From Bacteroidota bacterium (lineage in GTDB: Bacteria > Bacteroidota > Ignavibacteria > OLB7): a stretch of DNA of 64,000 nucleotides. Below the pieces are notes generated by a model that searched no databases, was not told the DNA's origin, and was given only the letters and a program-made list of their open reading frames with translations. Position numbers and translations under genes: made by a program. Below are positions 45,114 through 64,000 of the stretch, piece after piece; within the stretch, counting starts at the first letter, position 1; each line of letters starts with the position of its first letter. The stretch is from the NCBI GenBank assembly GCA_018266795.1, contig JAFDZV010000035.1:1-64000 (forward strand). The letters are read 5' to 3'.

Positions 45114-45346
45114 CGATGTCCATGATGGATCGGGGGCCTCGACGCGATATTCTTCGGCAACGATCCACCTGTTGTCTTCGCGAGCCCGCGCGAAGCGGTG
45201 CGTGGCGATCTCTGCGGGTTGGCCTCACCTGCCTGGTATGGTTCGGTACGTTGAGCGGGAAAGATCGCCACGCCCCTCCTCCGCCTGCGCGGCGTCGGGG
45301 CTCGCGAAGACGATCGATGTACATGGTGCGCAATGCCTGTGGTCAT
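45114..45346 (-). repeat. Palindrome-rich repeat, copy A (intergenic)
   Basis: About 230 bp that aligns, minus strand to plus strand, with 63643-63874 (inside nuoL) at roughly three in four positions by eye. Nested inverted pairs CTTCGCGAGCC/GGCTCGCGAAG and GTGGCGATCT/AGATCGCCAC allow a long fold. At least two frames on the minus strand are open through it. Confidence 0.8.
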
Positions 45347-45428
45347 GAGCAGGCGAGCAGAGCAATGCCGTGGTCCACTTGCAGGGCGCGTTACGGCGTA
45401 GCCGATGATACCGCGATGGCTGTGCGAG

Positions 45429-62520: not shown

Positions 62521-62850
62521 ATGTCGCTGACACCAGTAGGGCTGCCGCACTTCCTCACGGTTGCGGCCATTCTCTTCTCGCTCGGCATCTACGCCGTGAT
62601 TGCGCGGCGCAGCGGGCTGATGGTGCTTGCAGGCATTCAACTGCTTCTCGCCTCCGCCGGTGTCAACTTCGTTGCGTTCTCGCGCTACAGTACGGGCGAT
62701 CTTGCGCGAGCAATGACCGGTCATGTCGCCGTGATCATCGTGGCGATCCTTGCGGTGGCCCAGGCGATCGTTGCGGCGGCCATTGTCCGCAACCTCTACG
62801 GCCGCTTCTCCACGGTGAACGTGGATGAGGCGGACATCCTTCGGGACTAG
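62521..62850 (+). CDS. nuoK: NADH-quinone oxidoreductase subunit K
   Basis: 109 aa with three helices. HFLTVAAILFSLGIYAVIAR, GLMVLAGIQLLLASAGVNFV and VAVIIVAILAVAQAIVAAAI are the NuoK pattern, with the membrane glutamine/asparagine-rich turn before the third helix. Usually a glutamate is in helix 2; here GIQLLLASAGVN replaces the common GxELxxNAxN, so the key helix-2 glutamate is a Gln. The gene starts after a T-tract terminator; TATATTCC at 62459-62466 is a weak -7 candidate. Confidence 0.85.
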   Translation: MSLTPVGLPHFLTVAAILFSLGIYAVIARRSGLMVLAGIQLLLASAGVNFVAFSRYSTGDLARAMTGHVAVIIVAILAVAQAIVAAAIVRNLYGRFSTVNVDEADILRD

Positions 62851-63253
62851 ACTCCGTCCGCCAAGTCATTATCGTGCAGCGCCCTGATGAAGGCGGCGGA
62901 TGGTTGCCGCCACTGACGATGGCGGGTATGCCACGGATGTGAACGTCCGGCAATAGTCGTTGCAGGAGACGGCCGCGGAGCGGATGCCGACGCGGCGGCC
63001 TGTACCGGCCGGCCTCACCGTCCACTCCGCGGAACGATGCGCCGTGCGGGAGAGATGGCCTTCGCCGCCGCTTCGCGGTGCCGCCGCTTCGCGGTGCCGC
63101 CGCTTCGCTGCGCGAAGACTACGGGTGGTTATCGCAGAGGAATGCCCTGACGCAATCGGGGTTGATGTTCTCGAGCCGACTCCCGTGAAGAATTCAGATA
63201 CAGCCCCGGCCGGTCGTTGAACAACATCATCCGGTGCGCTGCTGCCTCCAATC
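62851..63253. other. nuoK-nuoL spacer with degraded repeat
   Basis: 403 bp, unusual for a nuo operon. It contains GCCGCCGCTTCGCGGT repeated 2.6 times (63064-63108) and a stretch similar to the end of the 230-bp element. Confidence 0.5.
63040..63160 (+). repeat. Degraded copy C of the 230-bp element, with 16-nt expansion
   Basis: GAGATGGCC, CCGCTTCGC, GCGAAGACTACGGGTGG and ATCG follow in the same order as in copies A and B, with a 16-nt unit amplified inside. The likeness is partial. Confidence 0.4.
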
Positions 63254-64000
63254 ATGACCGAGCTCGATCCAGCACTGCAACTCACACTTCTGTTGCTAGC
63301 GTTGCCGCTTGCCGCGTTTCTCTGCAACATCCTGATCGGTCTGGGCCGGCGCGGAACGGGAGAGGAGGAACGGGGTGGTGCGGGCGCAGAGTGGTGGATA
63401 GGTACCGTGCTCGGCTTCGCCATGCTGGCAACGGCAGCCGTCGCGGCGGCGATGGTCCTTTCCAGACCGGAGACCCCGCTGGAGCCGTCGTACTACCCGA
63501 AGGCGCAGGCATTTTTTACGCTCGTCGACCGTGGCGGCGGCATCGCGTCCGGCAGCATTTCCGTGGGCATCGTTGCCGGAAACACCTCATCGCTCCTGTT
63601 GATTCTGGTTGCGCTCATCGGGCTCTGTTCGCATCTCGCCGCTGCTGATGACAGCAGGCGTTGCACGCCACGTACATCGGTCGTCTTCGCGAGCCCTGAC
63701 GACGGCGAGGACGGAGGAGTGGCGCGGCGATCTGTTCCGCTCAACGTGCCTGACCATACCGGCCATGTGAGGCTGTCCCACGGAGATGGCCACGGCTTCG
63801 CTATGCGAAGCCTCGCGAAGGCCACAGGTGGATCCTTGCCGAAGGATGCCGCGCCGAACACCTCGATCCATCGGGGGCATCGTCGAGGTGGGGGGGCGTG
63901 CGAGGATGCCGGCTCCATGCGTACCGGCCGGGTCTTCAGCCGGGCGGGAAACGCGCTTCTTACGTTTGCCGCCGCCGGTGTCATCGTCTCCGGTGATCTT
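63254..64000 (+). CDS. nuoL: NADH-quinone oxidoreductase subunit L with in-frame repeat insert, 3'-truncated
   Basis: 249 codons are visible and the frame is open at the window edge. Residues 1-30 and 50-70 are hydrophobic helices, and IVAGNTSSLLLILVALIGLCSHLAA (positions about 106-130) is the next helix of NuoL. After it, in place of the short loop, come about 80 residues encoded by the palindrome-rich element (63643-63874), rich in Arg/Gly/His/Ser. Then RTGRVFSRAGNALLTFAAAG resumes like the NuoL RFFAYLNLF region. The frame survives, so the gene may still be functional, with an extra loop. Confidence 0.75.
   Translation, partial: MTELDPALQLTLLLLALPLAAFLCNILIGLGRRGTGEEERGGAGAEWWIGTVLGFAMLATAAVAAAMVLSRPETPLEPSYYPKAQAFFTLVDRGGGIASGSISVGIVAGNTSSLLLILVALIGLCSHLAAADDSRRCTPRTSVVFASPDDGEDGGVARRSVPLNVPDHTGHVRLSHGDGHGFAMRSLAKATGGSLPKDAAPNTSIHRGHRRGGGACEDAGSMRTGRVFSRAGNALLTFAAAGVIVSGDL
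63643..63874 (+). repeat. Palindrome-rich repeat, copy B (inside nuoL)
   Basis: Aligns with the minus strand of 45114-45346 across its length, including GTACATCG, GTCTTCGCGAGCC, GGCGATCT, CCGCTCAACGT, ACCATACC, GGTGGATC and CGATCCATC in the same order. Nested inverted pairs as in copy A. It contains no stop codon in the nuoL frame. Confidence 0.82.

Follow-up and report, generated by a model that had tools for sequence, protein, structure and literature searches.

A nuoL paralog at the edge of a 64,000-nucleotide stretch of Bacteroidota DNA (class Ignavibacteria; assembly GCA_018266795.1, contig JAFDZV010000035.1, here C28, positions 1 to 64,000; the whole stretch is termed the window) carries a palindrome-rich repeat element in frame (63642..63913, + strand; approximately residues 130-219, with a net gain of ~85 amino acids (aa) compared to orthologs). 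The insert is most probably an ordinary dispersed repeat that is tolerated in a redundant nuoL under relaxed selection.

The insert and its intergenic twin

The nuoL gene belongs to a second complex I operon of the order nuoK-nuoL-nuoM-nuoN. Its open reading frame (ORF), recognized by ORF prediction and homology (63254..64000 in the window, + strand, and on to contig C28:65737), encodes 827 aa and is open across the insert and beyond the window edge; the frameshift past the window that the sequence-only reading had named as a possible sign of a dead gene is absent. The same reading had described a stop-free, in-frame insert between complex I helices and proposed a comparison with close relatives, which bears this out. 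In 28 orthologs of the class, the connection between transmembrane helices 3 and 4 (TM3-TM4) reads approximately VHLFSIGYMxGDxRYxRYFAYLG and has a loop of only ~10 aa, whereas the NuoL discussed here has ~85 extra residues between SHLAA and GRVFSRAG. The insert is absent from all 28 orthologs, that of the same-genus genome G001 included.

An intergenic twin of the element lies on the opposite strand (45116..45352, - strand; model core 45140-45316). The two had been described as matching base for base; the match is real (63642-63880 (+) vs. 45116-45352 (-), E 9e-49) but is 78% identical with small gaps, and the similarity extends to ~63913 of the nuoL element. The nested inverted repeats that had also been claimed are present in both copies. 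In the nuoL copy (all features + strand), a CGTC-type tag and left outer arm, (C)GTCTTCGCGAG (63682..63693, arm 63683-63693), pairs with the right outer arm CTCGCGAAGGC (63812..63822), and the left inner arm GCGGCGATC (63724..63732) pairs with the right inner arm GATGGCCAC (63785..63793). The right-hand unit includes a local hairpin, GGCTTCGC-TAT-GCGAAGCC (63794..63812, arms 63794-63801 and 63805-63812), and is followed by a trailing module of diverged GTCATTGC-GAGG..GATACC ... GATGAC (63835..63913) that is common to the twin and partly to C3:231899. The pairing is imperfect in the nuoL copy and cleaner in the twin (outer arm 14/14); likewise, the twin folds better than shuffled sequences (z -2.8), the nuoL copy weakly so (z -1.5).

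A dispersed repeat family

The repeat family has ~60 copies in the genome, with a composite length of ~230-270 bp. A DNA (BLAST) search of the genome returns 50 matches, far beyond chance, and a covariance model built from 12 copies returns 79, some of which are one place matched on both strands and the weakest of which are doubtful. The unit consists, in order, of GTCTTCGCGAG, a variable segment, GTGGCGAYCT, the conserved spacer CCGCTCAACGTACCGAACCATACCAGCCACGTGAGGCC, GATCGCCAC, the hairpin GGCTTCGC..GCGAAGCC and CTCGCGAWGAC, then CACAGGTGG, then a second module, GTCATTGCAGAGGGATACCCTGACGCAGTCGAGGTTGATGTTCTCGCGATGAC. Across the family, this layout reads as an inverted dimer of repetitive extragenic palindromic (REP)-like units (head-spacer-head, ~170 bp) to which a further palindromic module is appended. 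Three tandem composite units with a period of 232 bp occur at L033:2095-2737 (contig C11 of the same genome, G000). They resemble one another very closely in sequence and, for that reason, are probably the most recent of all copies in this genome.

The second module alone has 47 matches in the genome, one of which shows that the trailing module also occurs between nuoK and nuoL (63127..63173, + strand; 87% identity, E 7.8e-10), ~80 bp before the nuoL ATG; a weak covariance-model match (63018-63152) overlaps it. The spacer itself (62851-63253, ~400 bp), which follows nuoK (62521..62850, + strand; inferred from sequence and position), also holds, near 63066-63105, GCCGCTTCGCGGT in short tandem units.

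No RNA function is claimed for the repeat, as covariation gives no support: RNAalifold yields a consensus structure of the 12 copies without such support, and the nested-arm structure, although 86% paired, has covariation no higher than shuffles. An Rfam search of the window gives nothing above the gathering score. The six Y1_Tnp loci of the genome were considered as drivers of the repeat and rejected, since no significant model match flanks any of them.

Genic and intergenic copies

Whether copies lie in genes was judged by a codon-usage score trained on the organism's own genome and applied to the 63 copies detected by the model. Coding signal occurs on both sides of a single copy, that of nuoL; a few of the remaining copies reach the stop-to-stop extension of an adjoining ORF, and four further copies of the module alone, beyond the 63, are all non-coding. 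As the predicted coding share of the examined sequence is ~74%, genic copies are strongly depleted. Most copies have stops in most frames, and several of the other copies carry a TGA when translated in the nuoL frame. Among these other copies ~16% of copy-frames are open; as one length in three keeps the frame, ~5% of genic landings would be read through by chance. The insert thus requires no special adaptation.

The suggestion of the sequence-only reading that the repeat might have become gene-invading is not supported, given one genic copy in 63, stops in most frames and a decaying paralog as host. The fuller version of the idea, a Rickettsia palindromic element (RPE)-like repeat that encodes a tolerated, soluble and unstructured peptide and enters proteins as a regular strategy, is accordingly quite unlikely. 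In its favor, the NuoL insert is open, polar, in frame and placed in a loop, an in-frame dimer also occurs in a valyl-tRNA synthetase (ValRS) of a relative (see below), and two rickettsial families, RPE-4 and RPE-6, belong to the CGTC repeats (PMC3733652). By contrast, one copy of 63 is genic here and one verified copy of 84 in six relatives, and the figure for chance read-through alone predicts more genic copies than are observed.

Relatives and the ValRS insert

The repeat itself was detected in none of 40 relatives by DNA search and in none of 118 other genomes of the class by covariance-model search (model R1). The motif GTCATTGCGAGG is carried by 15 of 41 genomes, with a control reading near zero, and in examples from several genera is arranged as GTCATTGCGAGG - hairpin - GAAGCAATCT - spacer - AGATTGCTTCG - hairpin - CCTCGCAATGAC. 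This arrangement shares with the element its order of head, variable hairpin, GCRATCT, spacer, AGATYGC, hairpin and reversed head, but the sequence is diverged and GC-shifted; model R1 finds no copies there. The kinship to widespread TTGCGAGG-type intergenic repeats that had been suggested is thereby upheld at the level of layout, and the element is likely a GC-shifted, elaborated relative of the GTCATTGCGAGG...CCTCGCAATGAC inverted pairs.

Six sets of loci from relatives hold 84 merged copies, of which two seemed to be genic and one was verified. The one in Lon of G010 was rejected, as the sequence there is native to Lon and matches the repeat by chance. The verified copy is in ValRS of the class relative G022 (L257:2165-5050, minus strand; G022:C6:97164-100049), which contains a complete GTCATTGCGAG inverted dimer in frame. 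Its translation, NVIASEAKQSGMIGKTESSQIAASSASRTPRNDT, adds ~33 aa (NVIASEAKQS...TPRNDT) between the catalytic and anticodon-binding domains. G022 has a single ValRS match, and the other aligned ValRS homologs of the class lack this insert. In family members of G022 (L322, L323 and L324 of G013, G031 and G040), the same ValRS loop has other, apparently unrelated expansions of 25-40 aa. As ValRS is single-copy and normally essential, it is a better test bed than nuoL for the translation and tolerance of such inserts. A tentative and rather doubtful extension of these two cases is that, in this Kapabacteria-like class, functional proteins now and then gain a stable, translated segment from a REP-type inverted dimer (~33 residues in ValRS of the relative, ~85 in a remodelled NuoL here); if true, new protein loops would arise from intergenic repeats outside the Rickettsiales as well.

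Decay of the host gene

The genome has a canonical nuoLMN operon elsewhere, on contig C11; a first scan of the genome contigs with the insert-bearing NuoL as query gave no matches. The closest named genomes by NuoM are Candidatus Kapaibacterium, Bacteroidetes and Ignavibacteriae metagenome-assembled genomes, at 41-45%, which makes the host a probable Kapabacteria/Ignavibacteria-like member of the Bacteroidota side. The insert-bearing NuoL matches 73 of the 150 columns that are invariant across the 28 orthologs, compared to 122 of 150 for the canonical paralog; each ortholog retains at least 96% of the positions invariant among the remaining ones. Identity to the same-genus ortholog (G001) is 32% for NuoL, 53% for NuoM and 49% for NuoN. 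The Proton_antipo_M domain is still detected in the insert-bearing NuoL, while scores against the NDH_I_L and PRK06590 profiles are far under the cut-off.

The TM5 Glu, the TM7 Lys and the HAxFKA and SKDE residues of NuoL function in proton translocation. In the insert-bearing NuoL, LQ stands in place of WE and RAGQ in place of GKSAQ, and neither HAxFKA nor SKDE is left; thus, neither the TM5 Glu, the TM7 Lys nor the His/Lys of later helices, by which a complex I NuoL is recognized, is kept. NuoM of the second operon has lost conserved lysines as well. All three antiporter-like subunits of this operon (window 63254-64000 and C28 to 69 kb) are diverged from the same-genus relative at conserved positions, and NuoL is the most strongly affected. 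Codon log-odds per codon are 0.14 for nuoL, 0.33 for nuoM and nuoN, 0.36-0.41 for the canonical nuoLMN and -0.11 for the insert. The host nuoL is thus a degenerating, redundant copy, presumably under relaxed selection, and it cannot safely be annotated as a functional subunit of complex I.

Domestication, in which the repeat segment would now serve a function within a remodelled NuoL-type subunit of non-canonical form, in a modified complex I or ion-translocating complex, is also improbable. The intact ORF, the presence of the partners nuoK, nuoM and nuoN and the in-frame position at a helix-connecting loop are consistent with it, but the codon usage of the insert is non-coding-like and that of nuoL weak overall, the proton-channel residues are lost and the insert has no homolog in any other protein found. 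Least probable is a repeat-induced misjoin that placed intergenic sequence in nuoL: repeats are classic points of misassembly, but the flanks encode both halves of one NuoL in the right order and frame within the operon, and the nuoL copy is diverged from every other copy in the genome (78% identity at best).

The reading preferred here, a repeat tolerated under relaxed selection, suggests the following course. The insert is one copy of a species-restricted, dispersed and non-coding repeat, which probably has no function and was probably mobilized in trans by a transposase; its copies persist almost exclusively in intergenic DNA. In nuoL, a copy landed in frame in the TM3-TM4 loop of a redundant NuoL that would have been under relaxed selection already, or soon after the landing. 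The insert is proposed to persist because it does not break the ORF and because the ORF need no longer pump protons in the canonical manner. Several points weigh against this account: (i) an ORF of 827 aa is unlikely to stay open at such GC content without some selection, and thus the protein may still be made, (ii) the downstream nuoM and nuoN retain ordinary codon bias, (iii) no transposase is linked to the repeat, so its mechanism of spread is one that we infer, and (iv) the ValRS insert of G022 shows that relaxed selection is not required for in-frame retention.

Comparison with known palindromic repeats

CGTC-tagged REPs are found in Proteobacteria, Chlorobi, Bacteroidetes, Spirochaetes and Thermotogae, and the rickettsial RPE-4 and RPE-6 are equated with CGTC families (Di Nocera et al. 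2013, PMC3733652); the sequence-only reading's premise of novelty for the Bacteroidota/Chlorobiota side is therefore weak. A literature search on the bare motif CATTGCGAG gave no relevant paper among the matches listed. Intragenic CGTC units include clusters that encode 43-82 aa, and no dedicated transposase is found for these REPs (PMC3733652). Similarly to them, the element here is built of palindromic units that are dispersed, mostly intergenic and mainly in inverted pairs, with an occasional in-frame intragenic copy and no dedicated flanking transposase (the six Y1_Tnp loci are unflanked). Their tag, CGTC (or TGTC/CCTC) at one end, has a possible counterpart in the GTC that heads almost every left-hand unit here and has a C before it in ~8-9 of 12; right-hand units mostly have GGTC. 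By contrast, the units here are GC-rich and larger, their spacer is long and conserved, and an additional module is present. CGTC-tagged REPs have an 8-9 bp stem that starts with A-T, a 4-5 nt loop and a CCA tail, whereas the units here have a ~5-bp ATCGC/GCGAT stem, a variable interior hairpin of 20-40 nt and a CTY/CTG tail; because of these differences in stem, loop and tail, the element is not filed as a strict CGTC REP.

REPINs/BIMEs mobilized by RAYT (GTAG REPs) share with the element inverted REP pairs with a spacer and mosaic arrays. They differ in the GTAG tag, which is not seen here, and in their RAYT association, as the six Y1_Tnp genes here lack flanking units.

The palindromic elements of Rickettsia and Wolbachia are likewise palindromic repeats in frame inside protein genes, loops included (Wolbachia, PMC4224334; RPEs and other in-frame fusions of miniature inverted-repeat transposable elements are reviewed in PMC10969869). 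The Rickettsia elements have many genic copies, as opposed to one of 63 here, and a peptide conserved across copies, as opposed to the stops in most frames of the present family. In-frame landings of such repeats are thus already known elsewhere. The nuoL insert documents the in-frame insertion of a REP-type repeat for the Bacteroidota/Chlorobiota side, in a family whose copy numbers and genic/intergenic count speak against a gene-invading habit.
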